DNA of 64,000 bases, from assembly GCF_026343125.1 (NCBI RefSeq), contig NZ_JAPEMB010000001.1, positions 7,507,501 to 7,571,500 of the forward strand. Reading direction: 5' to 3'. The notes beneath the pieces were generated by a model. The model saw only the letters and a list, made by a program, of their open reading frames with translations, was not told the origin of the DNA and ran no database searches. Position numbers and translations under genes: made by a program. Positions 39,035 to 62,674 of this stretch are shown piece by piece; the stretch's first letter is position 1, and the number at the start of each line of letters is the position of its first letter. This DNA comes from Streptomyces sp. NBC_00094. Lineage in GTDB: Bacteria; Actinomycetota; Actinomycetes; Streptomycetales; Streptomycetaceae.

Positions 39035-40546
39035 TCAGTTTCCCGTCACCGCGCCCCTCGGGCATTCCGGCAGCACAGGCCGGTCCTTGGTGCGTACGGC
39101 CGGCAGCCAGGCCGCGGGAAGAGCGGAGCCATGCGGGAGACGGACGCGGAACCACTGCGTGGACTGCAGGTCCGCCTCGTCGACGATGGGCTGACCGTCC
39201 GTCACCCGGCAGTCGGCGGCGAGGACGTCGCCGTGCCACACCCGGGTCGGTACGACGTTGTCCGCGGTGTACGGACGCCGCGGATCGACCGCCAGGCCCA
39301 GACTGCACTGCGGATCCCGGTCGACCCGGTCCTGGCAGCCCCGCTCCGCGTTGAAGACCCGGACCGTGCCCCCCGTCGCGCCCGCGCGTCCGTACGCCAC
39401 CGTCGAGCCCTCCCGTACCGCGTCCGACCACAACGTCGCCCCGGCCGTCCCGCAGAGCGCGGCGGCGAGGAGGACGGCGCGCGCCCGGGCCCGCAGCCGT
39501 CCCGGGCCCTTCCCCGGCGCCCCTTGGCCGGCGGTGATGCGGATCAGCAGGCTCTCGGCGGTGTGCGGGGCGCGCGCCGTGTGCGTCGGGGCGAGGCAGT
39601 CGGCGGCCAGCGCGCGCCAGAACGGCGGCACCGCATGGTCCATGCGCAGCGGTGCACGCCCCTCGCCGTACTCCTGGACGGCGGCGCCCCTCGCCATGGG
39701 CGTGGCGCCGGGGAACGGCGAGGCACCGGACGCGAACACCTCGTGGATGACGATGCCCAGCGCCCAGACGTCGACGCTCGGCCTGACCTGGACGCCGAGT
39801 TCCCCGAGGGGTGCCCGCCAGCGTTCGGGCGGGAGGTAGTCCAGGGTGCCCAGCGGAGGCGCGTACCCGTGCGTCCCCGTCAGCTCGGTGGCGATGCCGA
39901 AGTCCGAGAGCTTCACGGAACCGTCCGCGCCCAGCAGGATGTTCTCCGGCTTGAGATCGGCGTGGACCCAGCCCGACCGGTGGAGATGGGCGAGCCCCTC
40001 GCAGATTCCCGCGATCAGCCGGCCCCGGTCGGCCTCCGGCACCCCCGCGTCGAGGAGCTCCCGCAGACTGCCCGCGGCCCGCTCCATGACGAGCACGATC
40101 GCGCCGTCGAGGGCGGGCCGGTCCGGTGCGGAGAGGACGAAGGACTCCAGGAGACCGATCAGCCGGGGATGTCCGGCCCGGCGCCCGAGCTCGACCTCAC
40201 GACGGGCGGAGTCCACGATCCTGCGCGCCTGGCGCGGCGCGAGTCCGGCGGTCGGCATGACCTTGAGCGCGACGTCGAGGGGGCCCGGCGAGCCTCCGGC
40301 GCGGTCGGGTCCGCCCTCGGCACGGCCGGGTCCGTCTCCGGCGCGGTCCGGGACGCCTTCGGCGAGGTCCGCCCCGTCGTCGGCGCGGCGCGCCGCGTAG
40401 ACCGTGGACCAGCCGCCGGCCCCGATCAGCTCGGTGACCACCCAGCCCGCCACCCGGTATCCGGGCGGGAGCAACTCCGTACGATCGTCGGCTTCCCGGG
40501 CGTCGTCCAGGCCACCCGCCCCGCCCACACCGTGCGGCGCGGTCAT
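39035..40546 (-). CDS. Serine/threonine protein kinase with unusual N-lobe insert
   Basis: A 503-residue membrane-anchored kinase. The catalytic domain spans about residues 25-310: GAGGWSTVYAARR glycine loop, VALKVM with the ATP-binding Lys, GWVHADLKPENILL with the catalytic Asp, DFGIA metal-binding loop and PPERWRAPLG. The catalytic loop reads HAD where most kinases have HRD. Between the glycine loop and the VALK strand is a low-complexity insert of about 35 residues built of DRAG/PGRAEGG units. One membrane helix (RARARAVLLAAALCGTAGATLWS) follows, then a secreted tail of about 130 residues with two Cys. It overlaps the FHA gene by four bases. Confidence 0.85.
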   Translation of the reverse strand: MTAPHGVGGAGGLDDAREADDRTELLPPGYRVAGWVVTELIGAGGWSTVYAARRADDGADLAEGVPDRAGDGPGRAEGGPDRAGGSPGPLDVALKVMPTAGLAPRQARRIVDSARREVELGRRAGHPRLIGLLESFVLSAPDRPALDGAIVLVMERAAGSLRELLDAGVPEADRGRLIAGICEGLAHLHRSGWVHADLKPENILLGADGSVKLSDFGIATELTGTHGYAPPLGTLDYLPPERWRAPLGELGVQVRPSVDVWALGIVIHEVFASGASPFPGATPMARGAAVQEYGEGRAPLRMDHAVPPFWRALAADCLAPTHTARAPHTAESLLIRITAGQGAPGKGPGRLRARARAVLLAAALCGTAGATLWSDAVREGSTVAYGRAGATGGTVRVFNAERGCQDRVDRDPQCSLGLAVDPRRPYTADNVVPTRVWHGDVLAADCRVTDGQPIVDEADLQSTQWFRVRLPHGSALPAAWLPAVRTKDRPVLPECPRGAVTGN

Positions 40547-58918: not shown

Positions 58919-59049
58919 CCCCGATTGACCAGGGAGACGGCCGCTCCGGCTCCCCTCGCCGGAGGCTTCTTTCCGAGGCGTACGGCATCGCCCCCGCCGG
59001 TCGGCCGATACGGCCCGTGCGCGGCGGCGGAGTCAACTAAGTTACCGAC

Positions 59050-61704
59050 GTGGAACAGTTGACCTCCGAAGACCCGACCTCCCTGGGCGCCTACCGCCTC
59101 ATCGCCCGCCTGGGAGCGGGCGGCATGGGCCTCGTGTACCTGGGACGCTCCGAAGCGGGGCGTACCGTCGCCGTGAAGGTGGTGCAGGCCGAGCACGCCC
59201 AACACCCCGAGTTCCGGCGTCGGTTCGCGCGCGAAGTGGCTGCGGCCCGCCGGGTCGGCGGGGAGTGGACCGCGGCCGTACTGGACGCCGACACCGAGGC
59301 GCCGGTGCCGTGGGTCGCGACCCAGTACATTCCCGGGCCCGACCTGACCACCGTGGTCGCCGAGGACTTCGGGCCGCTGCCCGAGCACTCGGTCCGCACC
59401 CTCGCCCACCGGCTCGCGGCCGCCCTGCGGTCCGTGCACGGCGCGGGCCTGATCCACCGGGACCTGAAGCCGTCCAACGTCCTCGTGACGGTCGACGGGC
59501 CCCGTGTGATCGACTTCGGCATCGCCCGGGCCATGGACACCCTCGCCGGCGACAGCCTGCACACCCGCACCGGGATGCTGATCGGCTCCCCGGGCTTCAT
59601 GTCGCCCGAGCAGGTGCGAGGTCTCGAACTCACCCCGGCCAGCGACGTGTTCTGCCTGGGCGCGGTCCTCGTGTACGCCGCCACCGGACGTCTCCTCTTC
59701 GGCGCCACGGAGACGGGGCTGAACGCGCACCTCTTCCGGATCGCGGAGGAGGAGCCGGACCTCACCGGTGTACCGGAGTCGCTCGTCGACCTCGTCCGCG
59801 CGTGCCTGGACAAGGACCCGGCGCGGCGGCCCACCCCCGCCGAGATCGCCGACCGTACGGAGGCGGAGCGGCCGGGGGAGTGGCTGCCGGGCTCCGTGCT
59901 CGCCCAACTCGGGCGCCGTTCCGCCCAGTTGCTGGACTTCGCCCCGGATCCGCGGGTCGTGGCGGTGGATCCGAGGATCCCCTCGCAGGTCCCGCCTCAA
60001 CTCCAGCCCCAGGCCGCCGAGTCCCGGGCCGGCGCCCACAACCAGCCGTTCCCTCCCTCGCCCGCCTATGTGCCGACGACTCCGGTCGGCAGCCCCGCGG
60101 CCCCGGCGGGCTTCGGACCGGCCGACGCCGTCGGACCCGGAGCCTGGACGCCTCCCGCGTTCCCTCCCGAGGTACCGGAGCCGTCCCCGAAGCGGTGGTG
60201 GGGACTGGCGGCGGCCGTGGCGGCGCAGCTGCTCGTCGTGATCGGCGGGTCGATCACGACGGCGGCCGCACCGGTCCTCGCGGCCGACCTGCATCTCGCC
60301 GACGACGCGTTCAGGCTGATGTTCCTCGCCTACGGACTGGCCTTCGGCGGCCTGCTGCTCCTCAGTGGGCACATCACCGACCTCCTGGGCCGCAAGAGGA
60401 CGGTGCTCGTCGCACTGCTCGGCTTCGCCGTGGCCGCCGCGCTCGGCGGCTCGGCGACCGTCACCGCCGTGCTCGTCACGGCCCAGGCCCTGCAGGGCGC
60501 GTTCGCCGCGCTGCTCTCGGCGGCGGCCCTGGCGCTGGTGGCCGGCGGGTTCACCGAACCCAAGGAACGCGCCCGGGCCTTCGGGGCCTACGCCGTGCTC
60601 GTCGGCGGCGAGATGGCGATCGGCGCGTTCGCGAGCGGCTGGCTGGTCGAGTTCCTGACCTGGCGCCTGTGCCTCTACGCCCTCGTCCCGCTCGCGGGCG
60701 TCGTGGCCCTCGTGGCGAGCCGCCTGCCGAGCGACAGCGCGCCCCGTACCCCCGCGGGCGGTGACGTGCCGGGCGTGCTGCTCGGCACCGGTGGGCTGGC
60801 CGCCCTCATCTACGGCCTCGACAAGGCCACCGTGGTCGAGGGCTCCGACGGCCCCCTGCCCGGCGGCTGGTCCGACCCGCTGACCCTGGTCCTCCTCGTG
60901 GGCGGCACCACGCTGCTCGTGGCCTTCGCGTGGTGGCAGACCCGGGCGCGTACCCCGCTCGTCCCCGCGTACGTCCTCAAGGACCGTCAGCGCGTCGGCT
61001 CGCTCCTCGCCCTCGCCCTCGCCGTCACGGGCATGTTCATGCTGTTCCTGATCCTGTACCGCTACCTTCCGGGCGTCCTCGGCCTCGGGTACGGACCGGG
61101 CGCGACGGGCCTGGCTCTGCTGCCCGTGGCGGGAGCGGTCCTGATCGGCTCCACCCAGATCGCCGCGCGCCTCCAGTACCGGGTGGCCCCCCGTCTGCTG
61201 ATCGTGCCGGGCCTGGTGCTCGCGGCGGCGGGCCCCGCGCTGATGACCCGGATCGACGGCGTCACCTCGTACGCCGGCGTCGTCCTGCCCGGCACGATCC
61301 TCCTGGGCCTCGGTCTCGGACTGGCCTTCGCGCCGCTGATCGCCACCGTGACGGGGACGACGACCCCGGAGCGGCCGGGAGGGATCGCGGCGCTGGTCCT
61401 CGTCGCCCAGAGCCTGGGCGGCTGGATCGCCTCGCCGCTCCTCGGCGGCGTGCTCGCCTGGACGATCTCGGACCGGCTCGGCGAGGTGGCGGGCATGCCG
61501 GAGGAGCTGGTCGACGCGTACAGGAACGGCGCCCTGCTCGGCGGGCAGGGCCTCCCGGAGTCGATGGCCGACATGGTCGCGCAGGCGGACGCCGCGGTGC
61601 TCGGCGCCTACTCCGCCGCCCTGTGGTGGGCGGCCGGGCTGATGCTGCTCGCGAGCCTCCTGGCGGGTCTCCTGGTCACGGACCGGGCGCCCGAACGGCG
61701 CTGA
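59050..61704 (+). CDS. Serine/threonine kinase fused to a 14-TM MFS transporter
   Basis: An 884-residue single chain joining two usually separate proteins. Residues about 10-275 are a PknB-type kinase: LGAGGMGLVYLGR glycine loop, Lys43 in VAVKVVQ, IHRDLKPSNVLV with Asp138, DFGIA with Asp155, and SPGFMSPEQVRG activation segment. Residues about 276-380 are a Pro/Ala-rich linker. Residues about 381-884 are an MFS transporter of the DHA2 drug-exporter type (14 hydrophobic segments, GHITDLLGRKRTVL in the loop 2-3 motif). GTG 59050 has no strong ribosome binding site. The reading frame is continuous across the junction, so this is a true fusion in the DNA as given. Confidence 0.9.
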   Translation: MEQLTSEDPTSLGAYRLIARLGAGGMGLVYLGRSEAGRTVAVKVVQAEHAQHPEFRRRFAREVAAARRVGGEWTAAVLDADTEAPVPWVATQYIPGPDLTTVVAEDFGPLPEHSVRTLAHRLAAALRSVHGAGLIHRDLKPSNVLVTVDGPRVIDFGIARAMDTLAGDSLHTRTGMLIGSPGFMSPEQVRGLELTPASDVFCLGAVLVYAATGRLLFGATETGLNAHLFRIAEEEPDLTGVPESLVDLVRACLDKDPARRPTPAEIADRTEAERPGEWLPGSVLAQLGRRSAQLLDFAPDPRVVAVDPRIPSQVPPQLQPQAAESRAGAHNQPFPPSPAYVPTTPVGSPAAPAGFGPADAVGPGAWTPPAFPPEVPEPSPKRWWGLAAAVAAQLLVVIGGSITTAAAPVLAADLHLADDAFRLMFLAYGLAFGGLLLLSGHITDLLGRKRTVLVALLGFAVAAALGGSATVTAVLVTAQALQGAFAALLSAAALALVAGGFTEPKERARAFGAYAVLVGGEMAIGAFASGWLVEFLTWRLCLYALVPLAGVVALVASRLPSDSAPRTPAGGDVPGVLLGTGGLAALIYGLDKATVVEGSDGPLPGGWSDPLTLVLLVGGTTLLVAFAWWQTRARTPLVPAYVLKDRQRVGSLLALALAVTGMFMLFLILYRYLPGVLGLGYGPGATGLALLPVAGAVLIGSTQIAARLQYRVAPRLLIVPGLVLAAAGPALMTRIDGVTSYAGVVLPGTILLGLGLGLAFAPLIATVTGTTTPERPGGIAALVLVAQSLGGWIASPLLGGVLAWTISDRLGEVAGMPEELVDAYRNGALLGGQGLPESMADMVAQADAAVLGAYSAALWWAAGLMLLASLLAGLLVTDRAPERR

Positions 61705-61735: not shown

Positions 61736-61761
61736 GGGGGTCACCCGACGGGGTGGCCCCC
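61736..61761. terminator. Convergent terminator after the kinase-MFS gene
   Basis: GGGGGTCACCC pairs with GGGTGGCCCCC with one wobble and a GACG loop. The stem overlaps the stop codon of the DUF2278 gene on the other strand. Confidence 0.5.
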
Positions 61762-62412
61762 GCTGTCCGTGCGGTCGGCCTGGCTGGAGAACTTGTTGAG
61801 GAAGACGTCGTACCGGCCGTCGGGGCGCTGGGTGACCGTCGCGCCGTCCTGCCAGATCCCGTTCTCCGGCCACCACTGCGAGCCTTCCGGATCGCCCTGG
61901 TTCTGATGGACGTTGTGCATCCCGAGGTCGCCTTCGGGGTCGTCGGTGAACGGCTCGCCGAAGATGAGGACGCGCTGCCCGGGAGCCAGGACGGTCTCCA
62001 GCGCGGCGGCCGCGTCGACGTTGGAACCCGTGTGCCACGGCCGTGAGCCGAGCAGGTCGAGGAGCTCCTGCAGCCAGGACGGCGGACGGCGCCGGAACAG
62101 GACGCCGGTGCGGTCCGTGAGCTCCGGATGGCGCAGATAGTCCATCGCGCCGGAGTCGGGCGTGGAGTCCAGGTCGTGATAGCCGGGGGCGAGGGCCGCG
62201 GCCGGGCCGAGCGCTCCGGCGTCCACGGTGAAGCTCTTCCACTGCACACCCACGTTGGACTTGTGGCTGTCGACGTCGATGGCGCAGTGGTACCGCCCGG
62301 CGGGCGCGTCCACCTCCAGGTTGACGTGGAACCAGCGACCCTGGGTGTCCGGCTGGTCGCGGTAGTGGCGGTGGAGGGTTCCCGAGAGGACGCCGTAGTA
62401 GTCGAAGGGCAT
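61741..62412 (-). CDS. DUF2278 family protein (YukJ-like)
   Basis: A 223-residue soluble protein of the DUF2278/YukJ family. It starts at MPFDYYGVLSGTLHRHYRDQP, and contains the conserved YHCAIDVDSHKSNVGVQWK and QRVLIFGEPFTDDPEGDLGMHNVHQNQGDP blocks, which look like a dual-domain metal- or ligand-binding fold. Biochemical function is unknown in this family. The ATG at 62412 is chosen because the upstream reading frame is of low quality. It is convergent with the kinase-MFS gene. Confidence 0.85.
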   Translation of the reverse strand: MPFDYYGVLSGTLHRHYRDQPDTQGRWFHVNLEVDAPAGRYHCAIDVDSHKSNVGVQWKSFTVDAGALGPAAALAPGYHDLDSTPDSGAMDYLRHPELTDRTGVLFRRRPPSWLQELLDLLGSRPWHTGSNVDAAAALETVLAPGQRVLIFGEPFTDDPEGDLGMHNVHQNQGDPEGSQWWPENGIWQDGATVTQRPDGRYDVFLNKFSSQADRTDSGGHPVG

Positions 62413-62589
62413 ACCGCCAGTGAAGCACCCTCCGTCACCATCCGCATCGGGAACGTGACGTGGAGTAATCGTGCGGATGTGCGCCCGCACGCCGCTGACC
62501 ACGGGAAACGCGGGTGAACGGCACCCCGGAGGCCTGGTAGATTGATCTCTGTCGCCGCGGACATCACTCCGCGTCACGACACACACCTG

Positions 62590-62674
62590 GTCCAAGTGGC
62601 GGAATGGCAGACGCGCTAGCTTGAGGTGCTAGTGCCCTTTATCGGGCGTGGGGGTTCAAGTCCCCCCTTGGACA
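62590..62674 (+). tRNA. tRNA-Leu, anticodon GAG
   Basis: GTCCAAG (62590-62596) pairs with CTTGGAC (62667-62673) as acceptor stem. CTAGC-TTGAGGT-GCTAG forms the anticodon arm, giving anticodon GAG at 62623-62625. A long variable arm (TGCCC-TTTATC-GGGCG) marks it as class II, and GGGGGTTCAAGTCCCCC is the T arm. CCA is not encoded. Confidence 0.97.

Follow-up and report, generated by a model that had tools for sequence, protein, structure and literature searches.

A kinase-MFS fusion protein from Streptomyces as a probable receptor kinase with a retired exporter fold as its sensor

A kinase-MFS fusion gene of Streptomyces sp. NBC_00094, located at positions 59050-61704 (plus strand) of the 64,000-nucleotide stretch of DNA analyzed here (hereafter the window), probably encodes a one-chain membrane receptor kinase, in which a retired exporter fold of the DHA2/EfpA type acts as the sensor. 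The gene is a single uninterrupted frame of 884 residues with no internal stop (Table 1). The fusion is conserved among its homologs, the fused MFS domains form a single clade, residues associated with pumping have been lost, and the helices display a gradient of conservation from their inner to their outer ends. In addition, one clade of the family retains only half of the MFS domain, and a closely related kinase carries another sensor in its place. From these observations we infer that the MFS part would sense a ligand, of a class considered below, and that it would be coupled to an active kinase with substrates of its own.

Table 1. The kinase-MFS fusion gene, its parts and its upstream flank, in window coordinates
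Feature	Positions	Strand	Basis or remark
Kinase-MFS fusion gene	59050..61704	+	GTG start, TGA stop, 884 aa; open frame whole in homologs
Hanks-type Ser/Thr kinase domain, residues 15-267	59092..59850	+	Pfam Pkinase 129.6 bits; catalytic K43, D138, D155
Pro/Ala-rich juxtamembrane linker, residues 280-380	59887..60189	+	residues 281-376 with pLDDT <50
Linker motif P-A-Y-V-P-T, residues 338-343	60061..60078	+	conserved in 34 sequences
14-helix MFS (DHA2/EfpA-like) domain, residues 381-875	60190..61674	+	Pfam MFS_1 116.4 bits; AlphaFold model; Foldseek EfpA, QacA
G399, replaces helix-1 acidic residue	60244..60246	+	family alignment
L423, replaces helix-2 Trp	60316..60318	+	family alignment
Motif A kept, residues 440-448 G-H-I-T-D-L-L-G-R, cytoplasmic; fused-specific His441	60367..60393	+	family alignment
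Q479, replaces motif-B Arg	60484..60486	+	family alignment
L545, replaces helix-6 Asn	60682..60684	+	family alignment
P674, replaces helix-9 Gln	61069..61071	+	family alignment
Terminator-like hairpin between upstream DUF3040 gene and fusion gene	58944..58964	+	weak: 1 found vs 0.6 expected by chance

A sequence-only reading of this DNA had proposed a complete kinase (Lys43, Asp138, Asp155, HRD and DFG) joined in one frame to a full 14-helix MFS transporter, and both the parts and their fusion are borne out by the stop-free frame, by the domain searches and by same-frame fusions in homologs. The Pfam Pkinase model matches residues 15-267 (E 1.8e-37; 129.6 bits against a curated cut-off of 31.7), and K43, H136-R137-D138 and D155-F156-G157 are invariant in a 34-sequence family alignment. 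Judging from these residues, the N-terminal part appears to be an active-looking Hanks-type (PknB-like) Ser/Thr kinase. Also invariant in this alignment are two threonines where the activation loop is expected, Thr172 and Thr174, which might be phosphorylated by analogy with other Hanks kinases. In the window protein's AlphaFold model the kinase part is mostly of low confidence, probably because diversity is wanting in the alignment. The best NCBIfam model for residues 1-347 is that of AfsK (NF053615), which matches this part of the protein only and, at 288.8 bits, lies far below its whole-protein cut-off of 1300. Mean pairwise identity is 85.4% in the kinase, 43% in the MFS domain and 41.7% in linker residues 300-378; a kinase that is far better conserved than its MFS domain fits the expectation for receptor kinases whose sensors vary, and we count this difference (85% versus 43%) in favor of a receptor. 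Within the linker, the 34 sequences share a PAYxPT motif, with P342 invariant and P338, A339 and Y340 at least 90% conserved, which is possibly a contact, docking or phosphorylation site. In-frame GTG codons occur near the junction at residues 341, 390 and 397, and judged by eye none of them has a convincing ribosome-binding site.

The MFS part is matched by Pfam MFS_1 at residues 391-794 (E 1.8e-33; 116.4 bits, above the curated cut-off), and its AlphaFold model has 14 membrane helices, mostly with pLDDT of about 90. A Foldseek search of the PDB returned EfpA first (TM-score by target 0.88) and QacA fifth (0.89), with EfpA being the best PDB match by fold as well as by sequence. The EmrB/DHA2 model TIGR00711 matches residues 388-871 with 129.8 bits, below its cut-off of 230.2. 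Pfam searches at E <= 0.001 recovered Pkinase, MFS_1 and weaker kinase-like models only, and neither an SLC5 nor a histidine kinase domain. The earlier description of this part as a DHA2-type drug exporter thus holds for fold and ancestry, but as a statement of function it is most likely wrong, since five pump residues are replaced. Its alternative, that the MFS might be a sensor, is now better supported than the exporter reading, with sensing itself a presumed function.

The five positions, which we take to be important for pumping from the motifs of QacA, MdfA and the DHA2 exporters and from the alignment with EfpA, are occupied in the window protein by G399, L423, Q479, L545 and P674. In EfpA, the nearest pump of solved structure, all five pump residues are present at the aligned positions, with D at helix 1. 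We compared 39 full-length fused proteins with two sets of free-standing relatives, 29 close and 18 distant. The helix-1 acid (D or E) is kept in 20/39 fused proteins (Asp specifically in 14/39), in 29/29 close and 17/18 distant free relatives, i.e. in 46/47 free proteins; the helix-2 Trp in 9/39, 29/29 and 18/18; the motif-B Arg in 26/39, 29/29 and 18/18 (47/47 of the free proteins); the helix-6 Asn in 1/39, 29/29 and 14/18; and the helix-9 Gln in 20/39, 29/29 and 17/18, respectively. To the earlier question whether the junction and the Arg/Asp of the MFS are conserved, the answer divides: the fusion is conserved, but the Arg and the helix-1 acid are each missing from a part of the fused set. 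All five residues occur together in none of the 39 fused proteins, as against 29/29 close and 12/18 distant free relatives. Positions of structural importance are retained in the fused set (motif-A D444 in 38/39, G447 in 39/39 and the motif-B Gly in 39/39), and the motif-A His441 is present in 34/39 fused and 0/47 free proteins. Minimum changes on the MFS tree (acid 10, Trp 4, Arg 5, Asn 6, Gln 10) indicate that several of these losses occurred more than once.

The fused set omits broken, cut or duplicate loci (L011, L031, L085, L135, L140, L143, L151) and the near-identical L136, L141, L144, L148, L150 and L153; loci L158-L167 are outside these residue counts and are included in the same-frame fusion count and partly in the kinase tree given below. 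The close free set comprises L067 and 28 best-match loci (loci being available for 30 of 64 rows), with L085, which is the window, and L095, which is fused, excluded. The distant free set was hand-picked from the genome's own 133 MFS_1 matches as 20 with a long match span, taken as likely 14-helix proteins, and reached 18 after dropping L124 (no match to the window MFS) and L128 (24% identical, partial).

Because the five residues were chosen after inspecting the alignment, we also used 139 columns picked from the close free set alone, which are less biased and answer this concern in part. Across these columns the fused proteins are nearer to the close free set than the distant free proteins are, in identity (39.9% versus 33.3%), in conserved columns kept overall (0.61 versus 0.54) and in glycine/proline columns kept (0.81 versus 0.68), yet in polar/aromatic columns they fall slightly below them (0.52 versus 0.55). 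Ranked over the 40 columns that are conserved in the distant free set too, the largest deficits of the fused proteins are at W423, N545, S463, D399, V587, Q674, G529 and R479. We count for a receptor both that none of the 39 fused proteins has all five pump residues, the window protein having none, and that proteins this near to the close free set nevertheless fail at the pump positions. The alignment therefore makes the MFS of the window protein most likely not a pump, its pumping residues having been lost. Two other charged residues in or near its membrane region, R422 and E521, could couple in an unusual way, and some other fused members may still transport, since 14/39 keep the helix-1 Asp and 26/39 the motif-B Arg.

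Conservation is also distributed unevenly across the membrane. With helix thirds defined on the AlphaFold model of the window protein, the fused proteins score 0.67 for conservation in the inner (cytoplasmic) thirds of their helices and 0.50 in the outer thirds (p 4e-10). Because shared descent and mutual dependence link the positions, p-values serve here as a guide only. A free set of equal mean identity (43.6%) has no such gradient (inner 0.60, outer 0.61). The gradient persists when the clade of the window protein is left out, when a random 18 sequences are taken and on a separate alignment. With thresholds of 70% for the fused and 75% for the close free set, seven residues are fused-specific and six of them, including His441, lie in the inner third. 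Such a gradient, unseen in the free relatives, is expected of a domain whose inner face communicates with the kinase while its outer cavity varies with the ligand, and we count it for a receptor.

The proposed mechanism is as follows. The N-terminal cytoplasmic kinase would be the output, and the MFS domain at the C-terminus, a descendant of a DHA2/EfpA-type exporter, would have given up proton-coupled pumping to sense ligands at the membrane. Its ligand would be a small molecule, perhaps an antibiotic or a lipid-like compound of a type that these pumps bind, which would enter the outward-facing cavity and shift the MFS domain between its inward and outward states. The conserved cytoplasmic face, namely motif A with His441 and the loop between helices 4 and 5, would then relay this shift together with the linker to the kinase, which might respond by changed dimerization or autophosphorylation.

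A natural truncation bears on this mechanism. Five loci (L017, L022, L024, L025 and L032) encode proteins of 636-672 aa that keep the kinase and end after about nine helices, and these form one clade on the kinase tree (support 86). No C-terminal MFS half was found within 1,500 bases downstream of any of the five, the downstream matches in L022 and L025 merely overlapping the end of the frame itself. A frameshift, which explains short forms at L031, L143 and L165, is not seen in these loci. Of the four half-MFS genomes searched (L017, L022, L024, L025), three have no other clade member at E <= 1e-125. The half-MFS proteins keep the helix-1 Asp (5/5) and motif-B Arg (5/5) and show no gradient (inner 0.78, outer 0.74, p 0.21; five sequences), and the structure model, with a mean pLDDT of 49, is too low in confidence to use; these points we count against a receptor. 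Since D and R are kept and the gradient is absent, the argument from these forms is one of architecture and not of residues. Half a transporter seems to be enough for this kinase family, and a whole clade that has kept its kinase on a half-MFS we count in favor of a receptor.

The main alternative is that the MFS still transports, by an unusual coupling, and that the kinase reports or gates the flux, i.e. a transceptor or a phospho-gated exporter. The intact fold, the retention of motif A and the many other members with a helix-1 acid and a motif-B Arg would all suit it, as would the precedent of CbrA, at once a histidine transporter and a kinase (PMC7096432). However, we hold it to be unlikely for a protein without any of the five pump residues, in a family with a sub-clade that lacks the C-terminal MFS half and yet retains the kinase. 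Alternatively, the MFS could be a mere membrane anchor or dimerization scaffold, drifting in sequence, through which the kinase senses nothing. Both the fast divergence of the MFS, compared with the kinase, and the halving of this domain in one clade would fit such a role, but scaffold glycines, motif A and the cytoplasmic thirds are conserved in a pattern absent from free relatives, and fused-specific residues such as His441 are widely kept, which makes it quite improbable. A receptor kinase with a former exporter as its sensor is, in our assessment, the better account of the window protein.

The fusion itself is well conserved. Among the matches listed, a same-frame MFS (match at E <= 1e-5) follows the kinase in 61 of the 65 rows whose kinases share at least 80% identity with that of the window protein and in 0 of the 77 rows at 60-75%; of the two rows listed at 75-80%, L167 has the MFS and L038 lacks it. 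Homologs are thus single-frame fusions and not two adjacent genes. The rows comprise the best 80 loci of 555 relatives from a species-genome scan and later loci, all frames being read, and they are partly dependent: two of them (L085, L135) are the window sequence, L140 duplicates L032, and a further six are near-copies, in a copy check that covered the rows other than L158-L167. The four exceptions are broken or interrupted copies: in L143 and L165 the MFS continues in a different frame, L011 has an in-frame stop, and L151 leaves the family after the first MFS helix, its sequence ending 416 bases further; L031 is counted among the 61, yet its frame breaks inside the MFS. Such broken copies (L011, L031, L143, L151, L165) might suggest an assembly artefact or a chance read-through of two genes, but the homologs with a same-frame MFS and the single, fully supported clade of fused MFS domains refute this reading, to which we give next to no credence.

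Some members of Streptomyces and some near relatives carry the fusion. Of 81 genomes in a genus sample, 18 had a match at E <= 1e-125, 17 of these with kinase identity above 80%; a family sample of 150 genomes gave 11 matches in 4 of 17 genera, and a class sample of 118 genomes gave no match outside the genus at E <= 1e-105. Named fusion records among the matches listed are from Streptomyces, Streptacidiphilus and Kitasatospora; L032 is titled Microtetraspora, a name that we take to be wrong because its C-terminal sequence is identical to that of L140, which comes from a same-genus genome. In a quick tree of 91 MFS domains, 47 of them free-standing, the fused domains form one clade (44/44, support 100). 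In the kinase tree, a branch supported at 98 holds 45 fusion proteins of full length, 5 with a half-MFS, two broken copies and L038. The latter (L038:5001-7049) is placed among the fusion kinases with weak support on a long branch, and its kinase is 77% identical to that of the window, with a C-terminal OpuAC glycine-betaine-binding domain replacing the MFS. With L038 included, the kinase tree points to a one-kinase plan with exchangeable sensors that also includes a transporter fold, and the OpuAC domain counts for a receptor. In its own right, L038 is a possible osmolyte-sensing kinase.

Recent kinase swapping was considered for loci with kinase-only matches of 79-87% identity (L027-L030, L032, L034, L035, L037) and rejected, as their frames continue into divergent MFS domains. 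Some genomes contain paralogous kinase-MFS pairs with similar kinases and divergent MFS domains (L008/L018, L006/L019 and L025/L011, in the last of which L011 has the in-frame stop noted above). We consider it about an even chance that an EfpA-like pump, after a single fusion to a Ser/Thr kinase, ceased to pump and is now a fast-diversifying small-molecule receptor of Streptomycetaceae, with a half-fold sub-clade. If so, the copies would differ in the antibiotics or signals that they sense while acting on near-identical kinases, and the half-fold sub-clade would indicate that signaling needs neither transport nor a complete carrier.

The genome (8.19 Mb, two contigs) has 48 Pkinase and 133 MFS_1 matches. 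A comparison of 33 loci, with flanks of up to 5 kb, and the window (E <= 1e-25, >100 bits) found no neighbor gene family, besides the fusion gene and its shadow frames, in more than 5 of the 34 regions, which we likewise count for a receptor. A sigma-70 scan, a model ill-suited to Streptomyces, found no promoter for the fusion gene. Downstream of it lie a gene for a DUF2278 protein (window 61741-62595, minus strand), a tRNA gene about 0.9 kb away (62590-62674, plus strand) and a cytochrome P450 gene (62737-63981, minus strand), whose best NCBIfam model, pentalenolactone synthase, is far below its cut-off. Elsewhere in the window, a second Pkinase match (39692-40273, minus strand) lies inside a 749-codon open frame.

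Among known systems, the nearest precedent is CbrA of Pseudomonas, an SLC5-STAC histidine kinase transceptor. It likewise has a transporter domain and a kinase in one chain, but differs from the window protein in its SLC5 transporter, two-component histidine kinase, STAC linker and reverse domain order. CbrA is reported to transport histidine, with neither its transport nor its kinase activities significantly affected by histidine (PMC7096432), which we count against a receptor; its transporter part appears to modulate autokinase activity (PMC7096432; PMC13022988), and a preprint terms it a 'rare' transceptor (PMC13022988). By name alone, the same kind of fusion is described by TCDB 2.A.1.34, the Sensor Kinase-MFS Fusion (SK-MFS) family, given in a 2013 survey with one member, apparently in the S. 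coelicolor column, and substrate 'unknown' (PMC3924187); the available text of that survey has no analysis of its pump residues. Open-access titles and the starts of abstracts, a scope in which subscription literature mostly falls outside, yielded no paper with a Ser/Thr kinase-MFS fusion as its topic, and a prior description may exist in the subscription literature.

AfsK and other Streptomyces receptor kinases resemble the window protein in residues 1-347, for which AfsK is the best NCBIfam match, but AfsK is reported to carry PQQ repeats (PMC1262709) where the window protein has the MFS. PMC1262709, a survey of bacterial kinase architectures, mentions kinases with periplasmic binding domains, and its text does not contain the word 'facilitator'. 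The DHA2-type exporters EfpA, QacA and EmrB resemble the membrane domain of the window protein in fold and sequence; the window protein differs from them by the replacement of the five pump residues and by its attached kinase. The yeast glucose sensors Snf3 and Rgt2 are similar in having a transporter-like receptor domain with a signaling extension (PMC6071613, PMC10876965), but they are eukaryotic and glucose-transporter-like, and their signal passes through a cytoplasmic tail, not a kinase domain. Few transporter-based receptors are joined to a kinase, and a Hanks-type kinase with an MFS fold that has apparently lost pumping would, if correct, add one more, through which Streptomyces could sense pump-bound compounds and answer by Ser/Thr phosphorylation. 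Its natural variants, with a full MFS, a half-MFS or a related kinase with another sensor, make the coupling testable. The case also cautions that a protein with an MFS exporter domain may be a receptor.
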